From: Methylophaga sp. OBS4
GTDB taxonomy: Bacteria > Pseudomonadota > Gammaproteobacteria > Nitrosococcales > Methylophagaceae
Direction: 5' to 3'
Length of the DNA: 64,000 nucleotides
Assembly: GCF_026319305.1 (NCBI RefSeq)
Contig: NZ_JAPDMV010000006.1
Coordinates: forward strand, 1 to 64,000
Positions within the stretch are counted from its first letter, which is position 1; each line of letters begins with the position of its first letter. The notes beneath the pieces were generated by a model, which saw only the letters and a program-made list of their open reading frames with translations, searched no databases and was not told the origin of the DNA. Below are positions 25,951 to 62,922 of this stretch, piece by piece. The position numbers and the translations under genes are program-made.

Positions 25951-26851
25951 TCGGGTTGCTTTCAATTCAGATGAGCTTGAGGCGCTTTGGGGGCTGCCGT
26001 GGCTGCCTCAGTTGATTTATATGCGGGCGATTCGTCCGAATATGGATTATGCGAGTGGTGTGGTCGGTATCCGTACCAGTCGGACGAAGAGGATCAGTTA
26101 CCAAGCTATCCGCGAGCAGGTGGAGGTGCATGAGACGCAGGGCCGCAATGGTTCTGATCAGCCTTCAGTGTCGGCGCTTCGGCATGCGGTAAACACACTC
26201 ATTAATGTCGGTTTGATTGCTCGGGTTTCAGGCCATGGTGACAGGTCTGCTTGTCTCGTTTTCCGTTGTCTTTTAGCTGATATGGATTCGTCTGTCCGAA
26301 ATAAGTACGACAGAGGTACGACAGGAGGCACGACAGAGGTACAGCAGGAAGTACAGCAGGAAGTACAGCAGGGCAAGCGGAAGCGGGAAGCCAGTAAAAA
26401 CGCGGCCTTAGAGTCGGAAAGAAGCAGAGGTACGGCAGCACCTACAGCAGACCATCCGGAGGAAGCCCGACAGGGCAACCTTGAGAAGTGCGACATACCA
26501 CCGGATCCCGATCTTAAAACATATACACATAAAACGCGCACGCGCGAGAGGGAGCCTGTTCCGCCTGATTTTTCTATTACTGCTGAGGTAAAGGCGAGAT
26601 TGTTCAGGTCGATGGTGCCAATTCCATTTGCTGAGCAGTTGGTTCAGGAGTTCGTCAATGCGAATGAGTCTTCAGGATTCACGAGTAAGTGTTGGGATGC
26701 GGAGTTTGTGAAGTATTGCATTCAGCAAAAACGATTCAAGGAGTCATGGCAGGAGAGAAACAAGCCTCGCAATGGGTTGCGATTGGTTTCTACGAAGTCT
26801 GGCAACAGTCCGCCTGGTGACGCCGGGCATGGGTTTAACACTGAGGATTAG
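25943..26851 (+). CDS. O-like phage replication initiator
   Basis: 302 residues from ATG 25943. The N-terminal half (ALWGLPWLPQLIYMRAIRPNMD...LRHAVNTLINVGLIARVSG) resembles winged-helix replication proteins; the middle is a hydrophilic linker with EVQQ repeats; the C-terminus (WDAEFVKYCIQQKRFKESWQERNK) resembles the DnaT/primosomal helicase-recruiting segment. Directly followed by the DnaC-like gene. The linker DNA has iteron-like repeats, so the origin may lie inside the gene. Confidence 0.75.
   Translation: MADRVAFNSDELEALWGLPWLPQLIYMRAIRPNMDYASGVVGIRTSRTKRISYQAIREQVEVHETQGRNGSDQPSVSALRHAVNTLINVGLIARVSGHGDRSACLVFRCLLADMDSSVRNKYDRGTTGGTTEVQQEVQQEVQQGKRKREASKNAALESERSRGTAAPTADHPEEARQGNLEKCDIPPDPDLKTYTHKTRTREREPVPPDFSITAEVKARLFRSMVPIPFAEQLVQEFVNANESSGFTSKCWDAEFVKYCIQQKRFKESWQERNKPRNGLRLVSTKSGNSPPGDAGHGFNTED
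26305..26373 (+). repeat. Six iteron-like repeats inside the replication gene
   Basis: Tandem 11-12-base units of GTACGACAGAG / GTACAGCAGGAA type: 26305-26315, 26316-26327, 26328-26338, 26339-26350, 26351-26362 and 26363-26373. Repeats within the O-type gene recall the lambda origin. Confidence 0.6.
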
Positions 26852-43555: not shown

Positions 43556-45619
43556 ATGCTAATTAATGGCGCCGGCATTAATGGCGAGGCCATCAATGGC
43601 CCGGGGCATATCCCTACCAGCGGGCCGATTGTGGCCAGCGGCATTGCGGTCGAGTTCGAGCAGTCTGTTGTTGCTGTTGCGGCGGGCACCGCTGTCGAGG
43701 TTGAGCAAAGCGTTGGGGCCGTCGCTTCGGGCACGGCTGTCGAGTTTGAGCAGCTTGTCGGCATTCTCGCCAGTGGCATTGCGGTCGAGTTCGAGCAGTC
43801 TGTGGTGTTTTCTGCCGTTGGCAGTGGCATCGCTGTCGAGTTCGAGCAGGTTGTCCAGGCGGTGGCCGCAGGCATTGCGGTCGAGTTTGAGCAGCGGGTG
43901 CGTGATACTAATGCCAGCGCATCGCACCTGGATCTTTTTGGCTGGGATGCCCGCATCACTATCAATGGCAAGTTGGTGCCGCTGTGTGAGATCGGGGGTG
44001 AAATAACGGTTACACGCAACGAAAACGCGTCGGCGCTGGCGCAAGTGACGCTGGTCAACAAAACCGGTCAGCAGGATTTTGATGCCTGGCACGGCAAGCA
44101 GATCCTCATCGATGCGGATACCGACACCGGCACGCGCCGGATATTCACCGGCACGATTGATTATCCACGCACAGATCTGGTGAATAAAACAATCCGGCTT
44201 GATTGCATTGACCGCCGCGAGGAAAGGGTCAATGCCCAACTGTCCAGCCAGGTGAAGTTTGTGGGCTTTTGGTCCCCTGACATCTTCGAAACACCAGAAG
44301 ACACGGCCGAGGAGTTGCGGCAGCGACTGGAGACAACACCGCACGCGCTGGACTTTGACAGCTACGGCCAGCATCGTGTCACCAGCCTGCTGGCGAAATC
44401 GACACCGGATTTTACGCTGGAGCGTTGCGATATCTCCAACGACATACCGGTATTGAATTTATCCACCCGGTCCAGGCTGGTTAATCGCGTGCGCATGGAA
44501 TTCGAGGCGCGATGGACCCGTCTGCGGCACCGGGAGAAAAGCTTCAAAATTGAAGCCCCCGCCTTCTGTGACTATATGACAGTGCAGGGGCTTGATTACT
44601 TGCGCATTGATAGCGTGTATCAGACGCTGGATTCTTTTCCGTGGGCCGTCAAACCGAGCACGATTGATTTTACCTATCTGCCTGATGCGGGCGTTTACAA
44701 CTGTGGCAATGGGAAATTTATCTGGACGCCGCCGCGTGGATTCGGCAGCGTCAAGGTGGTGCGTGATCAGAATGGCGATATTGTTTATGACGCTAGCGGC
44801 AATCCGGTTTATGAACCAGTGGCGGGTTCCAGCGCGGCACCCATATTCTGCCTGTCGGCAAACTGGACGGCAGCGAAACGCTGGGCACAGGATATCAGTG
44901 AAAGCATCACCGTCACACTGAACGCCCCACAGTCGATCGGCCAGTATGGTGCTATCGAGCGGACTAACCGCTACGGCTATGACGTAGAGTATGACACGCA
45001 GGATTATGAGAGCAACGAGACATACCAGTCGCCAAGCGGGTTTATCTCTGCCGGCAACGGCGACTATTACCTGGACAAAAGCGGCAGCGCAGTAGACTAC
45101 AAGAAGGCGCTGCAAACAGGGTTTTCAATCTGTGAGGCAACGATTGTCAAGTCGCACCGCGAGAATACGGTGGCGTTCAGGTCACGCAACTTCTGGCCGG
45201 ATGTTGAGCTATATCACACAGTAGCGATCAACACCGATACGATCACTTGCCGGGGCAAGGTCAAGCAAATCGTCCATAAGCTGAACACGAAGAGCAAGCG
45301 GGCGACCACGAATGTAGTGCTGGCGTTGTCACGCGCGCAAGGTGGTCAGTCTCAGGACAGCCTGTCGTTCCCCATACTGGACGCACCACTGGTCGGCAAC
45401 CCCGGATCGAATGTGACGTACAAGCTGTATCAGGGGCAAGGCGGCGGATCTGGTGGTGGGCTGCTCGGGCAGGGCACCAGTTATGCCACACCTCCGGTAA
45501 AAAACAGCACGCTGAAAGCGCCGGACATCGATGAAATGAGCCGTAAGCAACAGAAAACATCTGACAGCTATAGCTACAACGTGGTGCTGCAAAATGATCC
45601 ATTGGATGTGAACTTCTGA
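43556..45619 (+). CDS. Large tail-tip / minor tail protein with N-terminal repeats
   Basis: 687 residues. Starts MLINGAGINGEAINGPGH, then six near-identical 15-residue units of (I/T)AVEFEQ-x-V-x(4)-(A/S)G type (residues 30-115). The rest is a long beta-rich region (ITINGKLVPLCEIGGEITVTRNENASA...) of a baseplate-hub or host-contact protein. Largest gene of the tail tip. Confidence 0.7.
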   Translation: MLINGAGINGEAINGPGHIPTSGPIVASGIAVEFEQSVVAVAAGTAVEVEQSVGAVASGTAVEFEQLVGILASGIAVEFEQSVVFSAVGSGIAVEFEQVVQAVAAGIAVEFEQRVRDTNASASHLDLFGWDARITINGKLVPLCEIGGEITVTRNENASALAQVTLVNKTGQQDFDAWHGKQILIDADTDTGTRRIFTGTIDYPRTDLVNKTIRLDCIDRREERVNAQLSSQVKFVGFWSPDIFETPEDTAEELRQRLETTPHALDFDSYGQHRVTSLLAKSTPDFTLERCDISNDIPVLNLSTRSRLVNRVRMEFEARWTRLRHREKSFKIEAPAFCDYMTVQGLDYLRIDSVYQTLDSFPWAVKPSTIDFTYLPDAGVYNCGNGKFIWTPPRGFGSVKVVRDQNGDIVYDASGNPVYEPVAGSSAAPIFCLSANWTAAKRWAQDISESITVTLNAPQSIGQYGAIERTNRYGYDVEYDTQDYESNETYQSPSGFISAGNGDYYLDKSGSAVDYKKALQTGFSICEATIVKSHRENTVAFRSRNFWPDVELYHTVAINTDTITCRGKVKQIVHKLNTKSKRATTNVVLALSRAQGGQSQDSLSFPILDAPLVGNPGSNVTYKLYQGQGGGSGGGLLGQGTSYATPPVKNSTLKAPDIDEMSRKQQKTSDSYSYNVVLQNDPLDVNF
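43643..43900 (+). repeat. Six 45-bp coding repeats in the tail-tip gene
   Basis: Units reading GG(C/A)-x-GC(G/T)GTCGAGTT(C/T)GAGCAG, period 45 bases with one of 51. They encode the AVEFEQ repeats and could expand or shrink by recombination. Confidence 0.75.
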
Positions 45620-59827: not shown

Positions 59828-60238
59828 ATGATAAAGCGTTTTTTTGCTATTTCAGTCGTGATGCTGATTTTTGCAACGCCACTTTATGCGTTGACCTTGC
59901 CGCCGGTTCCGACGGAGCCGATCTATTATGAACCGCCGATAGCAGAGGTTGAACAGCAACAGCGTGAACTGGACTGTTATCAGCTCGATATGGCTATTAA
60001 CCAGCTGCATCCTTACCGGTACAGCTACAAACCTTCTTTCTATCAGGATGGCAGCAATCAATTGGCTACGGCTTTGATTGTTTTTGACAGTATTCCGGTG
60101 GTAGAGGGTTGGCTGGGGTTGGGCTATCTAGGCTATTCGGCGCTGGTGAGTGAAAAAGAAGACCGTCGCATGCTGCAAGTTGAGCAGCAGATCGCTGCTT
60201 TGCAGCGGGTTAAGGCTGAAAAACACTGCTATGAATAG
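59828..60238 (+). CDS. Exported hypothetical protein
   Basis: 136 residues with a signal peptide (KRFFAISVVMLIFATPLYA). The mature part is rich in Pro then Gln/Tyr and has a short hydrophobic segment (GWLGLGYLGYSALV). No family recognised. Ribosome site GAGGAG. Confidence 0.65.
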   Translation: MIKRFFAISVVMLIFATPLYALTLPPVPTEPIYYEPPIAEVEQQQRELDCYQLDMAINQLHPYRYSYKPSFYQDGSNQLATALIVFDSIPVVEGWLGLGYLGYSALVSEKEDRRMLQVEQQIAALQRVKAEKHCYE

Positions 60239-60272
60239 GTCCTCATGTAGATCAAGTCCTCGACTAATTTCT

Positions 60273-60302
60273 TGTCGTTATAGTGGCAACTAAGGTACTA
60301 TC
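60273..60302 (+). promoter_or_regulatory. Possible promoter of the Trp-Tyr repeat gene
   Basis: TTGTCG (60273-60278), 18-base spacer, TACTAT (60297-60302). Only moderate agreement with sigma-70 consensus. Confidence 0.35.
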
Positions 60303-60334
60303 GGACTACTTAACTGCCCAAAGAGGTACGAAAA

Positions 60335-61603
60335 ATGAGTAGCACACTAGACTTTAAAACCAAGTGGTACGAAGCGAATCTCAAAACAGCTCGTGAAAGC
60401 CGCAACAAGTGGTACCGGGCGAATGAGAATCCTGTTAAAGCCAGCGGTGCCCGCTGGTATAACGCAAATAAATTACCAGCAAAAATCAGTGAAACGCCTT
60501 GGTACAAAGCCAATATGGTGGAACATCTGAATACCAAACGTAAATGGTATGCCGCTAATCTACAACAAGCCGTACAGTCTGTGCGTGCTACCCGTAAGTG
60601 GTATGAAGCAAACAAAACCCTTTCCGAAGTTGAACAACGCTGGATGCAATTCAGTGATGATTTATATAGCGATACTGAAAAAGCCTGGATCCGCGCTAAT
60701 CTGGAACAGGCCCGTGAAAAACGGGTTAAGTGGTACGAGTCCAATCTCGATAACACTCGCACGGAAAAGCACTGGTACGAATTCAGCGACGAGAAATATT
60801 CCGAAACGGAAAAGAAATGGTATGAGGCTAATCTGCAAAAAGCACGTGCCAGCCATAAAAAATGGTACGAAGCCAATGTTCATCCCGACCCACACGCTGA
60901 GTTGAAGAAACGTTGGTATGCTTCCAATCTGAGCCTGGTTCGTACACAACAGATCAAAAATCAATGGTTTGAGCATAATGTGCAGATTGCCCGTGAAGGG
61001 CAATCCAAGTGGTATGAGGCGAATCAACGTCCGGCCAAAGTCCTTGAAACACCTTGGTACAAGGCCAATATGGTGGAACATCTGAATACCAAGAAAAAAT
61101 GGTATGAAGCAAACCTGAGAACGGCAGTTGAGTCAGTTCGTGCGAATCGCAGCAAGTGGTATGAATCCAACCTCGACAACACACCGACGGAGAAGCACTG
61201 GTACGAATTCAGTGATGAAAAATACAGTCAGACTACCAGACAGTGGTTTGAAGCGAATTTGGCTCAGGTGCGTGAAAAACGTAGCAAATGGTATGAAGCC
61301 AACCTTGACAATACGCCGACTGATAAACACTGGTATGAAATCAGTGATGAACGCTATTCTGATACCAAGAAAAAATGGTATGAGGCTAACCTGCAAGCTG
61401 CGCGCGTCAACCGGAAGAAATGGTATGAAGCCAATATGCATCCGGATCCGCATGCCGATCTGAAAAAGAAATGGTATGAATCGAACCTCAGTCTGGCACG
61501 GACTCAGAAGATCAAGAGCCAGTGGTTTGAGCAAAATACCATTAAAGCGCGTGAGTCTCGCAAGAAGTGGGATCAGTCTGACGAAACGACTGAAACAGTT
61601 TAG
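60335..61603 (+). CDS. Tandem-repeat protein built of 15-residue KWYEAN units
   Basis: 422 residues, essentially all repeat. 27 Trp occur at a modal spacing of 15 (W11, 26, 41, 56, 71, 89, 103, 118, 133 ... 397, 412), most in (K/R/P/H/Q)-W-(Y/F)-(E/K/R/N)-(A/S/F)-N/S, followed by a helical-looking NLxxAREKR segment. A higher-order duplication of ~185 residues relates W41-W226 to W226-W412, with a further 44-residue internal repeat (W275/W319). No signal peptide, membrane segment or catalytic motif; strongly aromatic and basic. RBS AAAGAGGTACGAAAA before the ATG. I do not recognise the family. Its own promoter is plausible; it is not coupled to its neighbours. Confidence 0.9.
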   Translation: MSSTLDFKTKWYEANLKTARESRNKWYRANENPVKASGARWYNANKLPAKISETPWYKANMVEHLNTKRKWYAANLQQAVQSVRATRKWYEANKTLSEVEQRWMQFSDDLYSDTEKAWIRANLEQAREKRVKWYESNLDNTRTEKHWYEFSDEKYSETEKKWYEANLQKARASHKKWYEANVHPDPHAELKKRWYASNLSLVRTQQIKNQWFEHNVQIAREGQSKWYEANQRPAKVLETPWYKANMVEHLNTKKKWYEANLRTAVESVRANRSKWYESNLDNTPTEKHWYEFSDEKYSQTTRQWFEANLAQVREKRSKWYEANLDNTPTDKHWYEISDERYSDTKKKWYEANLQAARVNRKKWYEANMHPDPHADLKKKWYESNLSLARTQKIKSQWFEQNTIKARESRKKWDQSDETTETV

Positions 61604-61646: not shown

Positions 61647-62282
61647 ATGGACATTCAGTGTTTTACTGTTGGCGCTTTTCAGGTCAATACCTATCTTTTG
61701 CGTGACGAAACCAGCGGCCATGCAGCGATTGTCGATACCGGCGAGAGTGATACGCTGATCAATCAGCTGTTAGCACTGGATCCTCGGCCTGATATCAAAA
61801 TGATATTGCTCACTCACGGGCATCTTGATCACGCTGGCGCATTGGTCAAATTGCAGCAGGTTTATGATGTTGATACGTACCTGCCGCGACTGGAAAAATC
61901 GTTATTCGACACGTTGCCTCAGCAGGGAGACTGGTTTGGTGCGCCGCAGATGAATCGCCCATGTGGCCGTATCGATCACTGGCTGGATGACGGCGATACC
62001 ATTCAATTGGGCGAGACCACACTGCATTTTATTTCCACCCCAGGCCATACGCCCGGACAGGGCTGCTATTACGACGATAATGATATTTTTGTTGGCGATA
62101 CACTGTTTGCAGGCAGTGTCGGACGGACAGACCTGCCGATGGGCGACCCGGAGCTGATGCAACACAGTCTTCATAAGCTGATGACTTTGCCGGGACATTT
62201 GCGTGTGCACAGTGGCCATGGTCCGGTGACAACACTGGAGCAAGAAAAACTTACCAATCCTTTTTTAACTTTTCTCAGATAA
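61647..62282 (+). CDS. MBL-fold hydrolase (glyoxalase II-like)
   Basis: 211 residues. LTHGHLDHAGAL is the HxHxDH metal motif, followed by STPGHTPGQGCYY, FVGDTLFAGSVGRTDLP and HSGHGPVTT ligands. Close to YcbL/glyoxalase II-type thiolester hydrolases; substrate unknown. Confidence 0.9.
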   Translation: MDIQCFTVGAFQVNTYLLRDETSGHAAIVDTGESDTLINQLLALDPRPDIKMILLTHGHLDHAGALVKLQQVYDVDTYLPRLEKSLFDTLPQQGDWFGAPQMNRPCGRIDHWLDDGDTIQLGETTLHFISTPGHTPGQGCYYDDNDIFVGDTLFAGSVGRTDLPMGDPELMQHSLHKLMTLPGHLRVHSGHGPVTTLEQEKLTNPFLTFLR

Positions 62283-62292
62283 AACGATAATC

Positions 62293-62922
62293 ATGGCTAC
62301 GACGGATAAATTATTAGACGGATTCAAACGCTTTAAACAAACTTACTTTGGAGATGACAGTCGGTTATATGCCAGTATGAAAAACGGGCAACCAGCAAAG
62401 ACTTTAATGGTCGCCTGTTGTGATTCACGGGTTGATCCGGCGATTCTGACTGATTGTGATCCTGGTGATTTGTTCACGGTCAGAAATGTTGCTAATCTGG
62501 TGCCGCCTTGTGAGGATGATAACCACTATCACGGCACCAGTTCAGCGTTAGAGTTCGCGGTCAAGGGGCTGGAAGTGGAGAACATCATTGTGATGGGGCA
62601 CGCCAATTGCGGGGGAATCAGGGCGTTGTGGGAAGGTGATGGCCAGGCGCAGTCTCAGTTTATTCACCGTTGGGTGTCGATAGCACAACCCGCCAAAGAA
62701 TGGGTAAAAGCCAACTATCAGCAAAGCAGTGATGCTGCACAGCTCAAAGCCTGTGAGCAGCGTGCAGTGCTGGTGTCCCTCGATAACCTGCTTAGTTTCA
62801 AATGTATTCGTGAACGGGTAGAGCAGGGCAGCCTGAGTTTACACGGGTGGTATTTTGATTTGGCTGCGGGAGAGTTGCTTTGTTATAACCCGGTATCAGG
62901 GCAATTTGAGCAACCGGCCTGA
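62293..62922 (+). CDS. Beta-class carbonic anhydrase
   Basis: 209 residues. Zinc ligands and Asp/Arg pair in VACCDSRVDPAIL, and HANCGGIRAL with the His and second Cys. Interconverts CO2 and bicarbonate. Eleven bases after the MBL gene, possibly co-transcribed. Confidence 0.92.
   Translation: MATTDKLLDGFKRFKQTYFGDDSRLYASMKNGQPAKTLMVACCDSRVDPAILTDCDPGDLFTVRNVANLVPPCEDDNHYHGTSSALEFAVKGLEVENIIVMGHANCGGIRALWEGDGQAQSQFIHRWVSIAQPAKEWVKANYQQSSDAAQLKACEQRAVLVSLDNLLSFKCIRERVEQGSLSLHGWYFDLAAGELLCYNPVSGQFEQPA

Follow-up and report, generated by a model that had tools for sequence, protein, structure and literature searches.

WYEAN, a conserved tryptophan-tyrosine repeat protein of the Methylophagaceae with a 15-residue unit resembling the repeat arrays of phage nucleases

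Here we describe a protein, denoted WYEAN, encoded in a 64,000-nucleotide stretch of the genome of Methylophaga sp. OBS4 (hereafter, the window). None of the libraries searched contains the WYEAN family, but the module is not unique: in period, register and residue order, the unit K-W-Y-E-A-N-L-E-x-A-R is of the same kind as the 15-residue repeats of phage nucleases. The statement in the initial annotation that no described family resembles this protein therefore holds for the protein as a whole but not for its unit. A clear match to a described repeat family had been named there as grounds for dropping the claim of novelty; the phage array does match, but it is itself unnamed and uncharacterized, and accordingly decides the matter only in part.

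The WYEAN gene is real and conserved, and its repeat pattern is far beyond chance. More than 90% of the family's genomes retain it, making it a near-core gene of marine bacteria that degrade methanol and DMS; the product is probably among the most strongly translated proteins of these bacteria, is costly (6.4% Trp) and has no name. The link between WYEAN and the phage arrays gives a first handle on both because the contact made by the module would also explain a widespread part of phage nucleases.

Gene and repeat architecture

The features of the WYEAN locus are listed in Table 1. The whole ORF consists of repeat units; the initial annotation had described it as almost wholly so. It contains 27 Trp residues, separated by gaps of 15 residues (16 of the 26), 14 (four), 17 (four), 18 and 19; gaps of 14 or 15 thus make up 20 of the 26, whereas 10,000 shuffles of the protein's own residues averaged 1.4 such gaps and never gave more than 8. 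The modal spacing of 15 is confirmed, but the spacing is not uniform: the non-modal gaps (14 and 17-19) recur at positions that are conserved among orthologs. K-W-Y-E-A-N-like units are indeed found nearly throughout, with the pattern W[YFW]xx[NS] fitting 24 of the 27 units. In a profile of 715 Trp-centered units taken from WYEAN orthologs, K(-1) and W(0) are followed by Y (+1, 82%), E (+2, 73%), A (+3, 73%), N (+4, 80%) and L (+5, 46%), and further along by A (+8, 40%) and R (+9, 30%); position +12 is polar or charged in most of the WYEAN units.

Table 1. Features of the WYEAN locus (window coordinates)
Feature	Coordinates	Strand	Basis or remark
136-residue protein	59828..60238	+	Start resembles a signal peptide; no Pfam family; immediately upstream of WYEAN in nearly all family genomes
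Conserved promoter-like element TTGTCG - 18 nt - TACTATC	60272..60302	+	Conservation and position
Ribosome-binding site AGAGG	60322..60326	+	Purine-rich block ahead of the start codon, conserved in most loci
WYEAN Trp-Tyr repeat protein, CDS	60335..61603	+	ATG, ORF of 422 aa; family orthologs; dN/dS
Extra N-terminal units preceding super-repeat A	60344..60469	+	Super-repeat profile match, E 1.8e-8
Super-repeat A, 186 residues	60455..61012	+	Self-offset, profile match, DNA comparison
Super-repeat B, 186 residues	61013..61570	+	DNA 68% identical to A
Metallo-beta-lactamase-fold protein	61647..62282	+	Downstream neighbor; missing at this spot in some relatives
Beta-type carbonic anhydrase (Pro_CA)	62293..62922	+	Member of the conserved gene order

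The units are organized at a second level, in a super-repeat of about 185 residues that is present twice (best self-offset, 186 residues). Similar DNA copies had been pointed out around positions 60498 and 61054, and the best 60 nt of the two halves, starting at 60491 with the partner at 61046 (+555 nt), are 90% identical. Elsewhere in the window, positions 43562-43895 contain nested tandem repeats with periods of 15, 45 and 141 bp (GTCGAGTTTGAGCAG-like), apparently coding for a second repeat protein, and positions 26305-26372 contain two short tandem arrays side by side, of periods 11 and 12 (GTACGACAGAG, GTACAGCAGGAA).

WYEAN is strongly basic (pI 9.5, net charge about +20), as are all its orthologs (pI 8.9-9.8), compared with a median pI of 5.8 among 151 neighboring and related-genome ORFs; it nevertheless includes 60 acidic residues. 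Its hydropathy is the lowest among these 151 ORFs (GRAVY -1.4). The protein is 14% aromatic and contains many Lys and Arg residues, two Gly (0.5%) and zero Cys. Scans against Pfam, NCBIfam and PHROG produced chance-level matches only and no nuclease domain; neither a hydrophobic or membrane segment (Kyte-Doolittle mean of the most hydrophobic 19-mer, -0.35) nor a signal-peptide-like segment was found, consistent with the initial annotation on all three counts, and WYEAN would be located in the cytoplasm. A PHROG 'holin' match (5e-4) covers only 45 residues and is at chance level. Searches of PDB sequences yielded no true match; GIY-YIG and ExoVII hits with E about 1 proved spurious when inspected. 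In the literature searched, neither the KWYEAN motif nor a described repeat like the WYEAN unit was found.

Conservation, genomic context and repeat evolution

Of the 57 family genomes (Methylophaga and its relatives), 53 carry the WYEAN gene; in the genome of the window, it is the only gene of its kind. Relatives in public records, with 46-71% identity, belong to Methylophaga species and to Piscirickettsiaceae or gammaproteobacterial MAGs. The gene was detected in none of the six genomes from the order's second family. Among 369 genomes drawn from the class, none outside the family had it, a single chance match aside (a DEAD-box helicase of G399, matched in its RGG/RWG-like tail); among 398 genomes drawn from the phylum, only its own genome matched, and plasmid and IMG/VR viral-contig searches revealed no relative.

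In most of the loci examined, the gene order is small exported-type protein, WYEAN, (metallo-beta-lactamase fold), carbonic anhydrase, BamE and Fur, which indicates vertical inheritance of the WYEAN gene. These neighbors give no pointer to nucleic-acid handling; the 136-residue upstream protein could be a functional partner of WYEAN or a mere neighbor. The reduced 1.1-Mb genome G003 retains COQ7, carbonic anhydrase, BamE and Fur in this order, with both WYEAN and the upstream 136-residue gene gone, so that WYEAN is dispensable there. Of the remaining genomes without a match, two are uninformative because their contigs end close to the locus, and G056 has a rearranged locus. Separately, a BamE-like lipoprotein encoded in G003 (L082 9608-9991) carries a run of about 8 to 10 Ser-Asp-Lys repeats.

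Conservation of the repeat pattern in relatives and variation of its copy number, both raised as checks at the outset, are observed: the intact orthologs examined contain 12 to 29 Trp residues and between about 10 and 24 W-Y-x-x-N units. When the super-repeat halves are placed in a tree, 7 label changes are required, at least 5 of them forced by well-supported branches; the halves were therefore re-duplicated or homogenized several times. The identity of the module stays conserved, and the number and order of modules drift, as expected if all modules make the same contact.

Selection and expression

WYEAN is under strong purifying selection: dN/dS among ortholog pairs is 0.014-0.09, the lone exception being a near-identical pair with dN/dS of 0.25 at dS of 0.004. 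In G037, the one complete relative in which codon usage was measured, the codon adaptation index of WYEAN is 0.692, compared with a ribosomal-protein mean of 0.696, which places it 4th among 95 baseline ORFs; with amino-acid composition taken into account, the codon usage yields z = 3.0. Going by the codons of this relative, the protein is likely to be abundant or highly expressed. A proteome and transcriptome study of Methylophaga thiooxydans reports highly expressed genes of unknown function (PMC6548844).

Upstream of the gene, TTGT and TATC are conserved in all or nearly all of 24 aligned upstream regions (consensus TTGT...GTANTATC; the spacer of the window copy is 18 nt long), and a purine-rich ribosome-binding site comes next. 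A scan for consensus sigma-70 promoters misses the TTGTCG/TACTATC element, which is too distant from the consensus; its designation as a promoter is accordingly based on conservation and position.

Relationship to phage nuclease arrays

The only significant match outside the family is gene 20 of Chlorobiaceae phage CV-1-33 (L064 2471-3085; tblastn E 2e-5), which encodes an array-only protein with KWRAENPEKVREYQR units of exactly 15 residues and no nuclease domain, and lies near genes labeled Gp157 and ERF. A 15-residue [WY]xxxN-P-E-K-x-R-E array was found in 27 phage records, several of which are annotated as HNH endonuclease or endonuclease VII. In six other phage proteins, the array precedes an HNH-type C-terminal stretch and often follows a Cys-rich N-terminus; the HNH assignment by Pfam is confirmed for Samisti12 and borderline for FoX2. 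WYEAN and phage units share, in register, W(0), N(+4), E(+6), K(+7), A/V(+8), R(+9), E(+10) and a basic end.

Compared one unit at a time, WYEAN and the phage proteins show a similarity of only moderate significance (permutation test, p 0.005-0.04). Among seven phage proteins scored with the WYEAN super-repeat profile, four outscore all 200 period-preserving scrambles, and for the remaining three, the score is reached by 1/200, 7/200 and 21/200 scrambles. Comparison of the WYEAN profile with that of the phage array gives a probability of 96.6% and E 4.8e-10, and the score of 63.1 is reached by 0 of 60 column-permuted, period-preserving controls (maximum 39.3). In the opposite direction, a profile constructed from the phage proteins alone recovers the WYEAN gene in most family genomes (E 3.4e-9 for the genome of the window). 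Furthermore, in one genome of the Methylophagaceae (G009, contig 159; L104 216-2262), a phage-type array-HNH gene is located directly upstream of a terminase-like gene, so that a phage or prophage donor is at hand. A shared origin of the WYEAN and phage arrays is likely, convergence of helical 15-mers being possible, and WYEAN may well have originated from a phage array.

Predicted structure

The initial annotation proposed that the repeats form a solenoid or a repeated ligand-binding platform, and suggested a Foldseek search with an AlphaFold model. The full-length model (11 rows) is too poor for use (pLDDT 49.7, pTM 0.17). A half-length model built with 52 super-repeat rows consists of helices of 38, 24, 25 and 46 residues, with local pLDDT up to 92 but without a tertiary arrangement (pTM 0.24), the chain being broken at Pro/Asp joints; the Foldseek search with this model returned zero PDB matches. 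The Trp residues within a single predicted helix face different directions and share no face, and there is little power at a period of 3.75 residues per turn. These predictions favor separate modules on a string and speak against both a rigid solenoid and a pentadecad coiled coil of the classic type; low confidence of an AlphaFold model does not prove disorder. The solenoid is thus not borne out; the platform survives as a repeated, helical and basic one, for which polyanion binding is a sensible guess.

Possible function and alternative explanations

As the best, albeit tentative, explanation, we propose that WYEAN is a nuclease-free, expanded phage-type array kept by the host, an abundant multivalent binder, most likely of nucleic acid. 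The protein would be an abundant, basic, cytoplasmic chain of short amphipathic helices linked by flexible Pro/Asp/Asn joints, with one W-Y-x-A-N-L...A-R module per helix. The module is of the kind seen in the phage nuclease array; the nuclease and Cys-rich parts are absent, and the array would have been expanded and retained as a host gene. The Trp/Tyr and Lys/Arg residues of every module would make the same weak contact, and the linkage of 10-24 modules would provide strong, extended binding by multivalency. The ligand coated or bridged by WYEAN would probably be nucleic acid (DNA or RNA), because the phage module adjoins nuclease domains, because the array-only protein of CV-1-33 is encoded near the Gp157 and ERF genes, and because WYEAN is so basic relative to the sampled ORFs. 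The acidic residues, the neighbors unrelated to nucleic acids, the capacity of short helical repeats to converge and the scrambles that match the scores of two of the seven phage proteins (7/200, 21/200) count against this explanation. A more far-reaching version, in which a domesticated phage-nuclease array became an abundant, lineage-defining multivalent organizer (a nucleic-acid coat or condensate) encoded by a near-core gene and built from one 15-residue module, is considerably more doubtful; if true, WYEAN would represent a new kind of bacterial cell organizer made from one Trp-Tyr module.

The main rival is that WYEAN links proteins rather than nucleic acids, as a multivalent linker or condensate scaffold with W-Y-x-A-N helices as stickers that dock on a repeated partner, an abundant enzyme or each other, much as EPYC1 is understood to link Rubisco. 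Near-identical modules joined by variable linkers, a copy number that varies from about 10 to 24 with the module fixed, the abundance of aromatic, Lys and Arg residues, the probable abundance of the protein and the absence of a rigid fold from the model all fit such a scaffold; however, no partner protein is known, and a scaffold predicts neither the basic charge nor the match to the phage nuclease arrays. We view this possibility as unlikely, although less so than the others. That match itself could be convergent, with WYEAN being a lineage-specific invention with an unrelated role. The moderate single-unit comparison and the shortness of the motif are compatible with convergence, whereas the profile tests with period-preserving controls, the reciprocal search from the phage-only profile and the presence, in one family genome, of a phage-type array-HNH gene next to a terminase-like one speak against it; we regard convergence as improbable.

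Two further proposals come after the scaffold and are very unlikely. WYEAN could be a membrane-surface or stress protectant akin to LEA proteins, disordered when dilute and forming amphipathic helices on membranes, on drying or at high salt. LEA proteins and hydrophilins as a class are high in Gly and hydrophilicity; WYEAN is very hydrophilic, repeated and probably abundant, its hosts are marine bacteria, and its Lys-flanked Trp/Tyr would suit a membrane interface, but there is no LEA match in Pfam, the Gly and Trp contents are unlike those of this class, and Trp drifts around the helix, leaving no single membrane face. One segment of the plant LEA protein COR15A matches a proposed 15-mer, according to PMC11043620. 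The remaining proposal, if anything slightly less probable, is a self-assembling rod or filament, a non-canonical, slightly right-handed coiled coil resembling the VASP tetramerization domain. Right-handed coiled coils formed by 15-residue repeats are known (Kuhnel et al. 2004, as cited in PMC4721544 and PMC11043620), and long helices are predicted for WYEAN; yet the stripe is broken by the spacings of 14, 17, 18 and 19, Trp residues point to differing faces, the period-3.75 power is weak, position +12 is mostly polar or charged, and the predicted chain breaks at the Pro/Asp joints.

Comparison with known systems

Among known repeat systems, the alpha-solenoids (TPR, HAT, HEAT) gave no match to WYEAN in Pfam or Foldseek, a comparison limited by the low confidence of the model (pTM 0.24). 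The choline/glucan-binding W-Y repeats are secreted beta-hairpins of about 20 residues recognized by the CW_binding profile, whereas WYEAN is predicted to be helical, lacks a signal-peptide-like segment and has no such Pfam match. With the LEA and other 11-mer and 15-mer amphipathic repeat proteins, WYEAN shares a hydrophilic, repeated, helix-prone and poorly folded character, but it is Trp-rich, Gly-poor despite its GRAVY value, and without a match to an LEA profile. With the VASP tetramerization domain, it shares the 15-residue helical periodicity, but not a PDB sequence match, regular spacing or a continuous hydrophobic stripe at 3.75 residues per turn.

The likeness to phage HNH and endonuclease-VII-type nucleases, such as gp29 of Streptomyces phage Samisti12, gp61 of Xanthomonas phage FoX2 and the protein of Sinorhizobium phage AP-16-3, extends to the period of 15, Trp/Tyr at 0, Asn at +4, Leu/Pro at +5, Glu at +6, Lys/Ala at +7, Ala/Val at +8, Arg at +9 and Lys/Arg before the next Trp. 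WYEAN contains the 15-residue [WY]xxxN array that characterizes these proteins; however, they carry about 4-9 units, usually with an HNH-type C-terminal domain and often with a Cys-rich (zinc-type) N-terminal part, whereas in WYEAN, no HNH domain was detected by Pfam, NCBIfam or PHROG and, in the absence of Cys, there is no counterpart of the N-terminal part. WYEAN is therefore placed outside the nuclease family. It further differs in having 27 Trp residues and no other domain, a nearly fixed Tyr after Trp, no Pro at +5, a two-level (185-residue) repeat and vertical inheritance in bacteria. The product of CV-1-33 gene 20 is, like WYEAN, a nuclease-free array in the same unit frame, but is shorter (204 aa) and composed of perfectly regular 15-mers.
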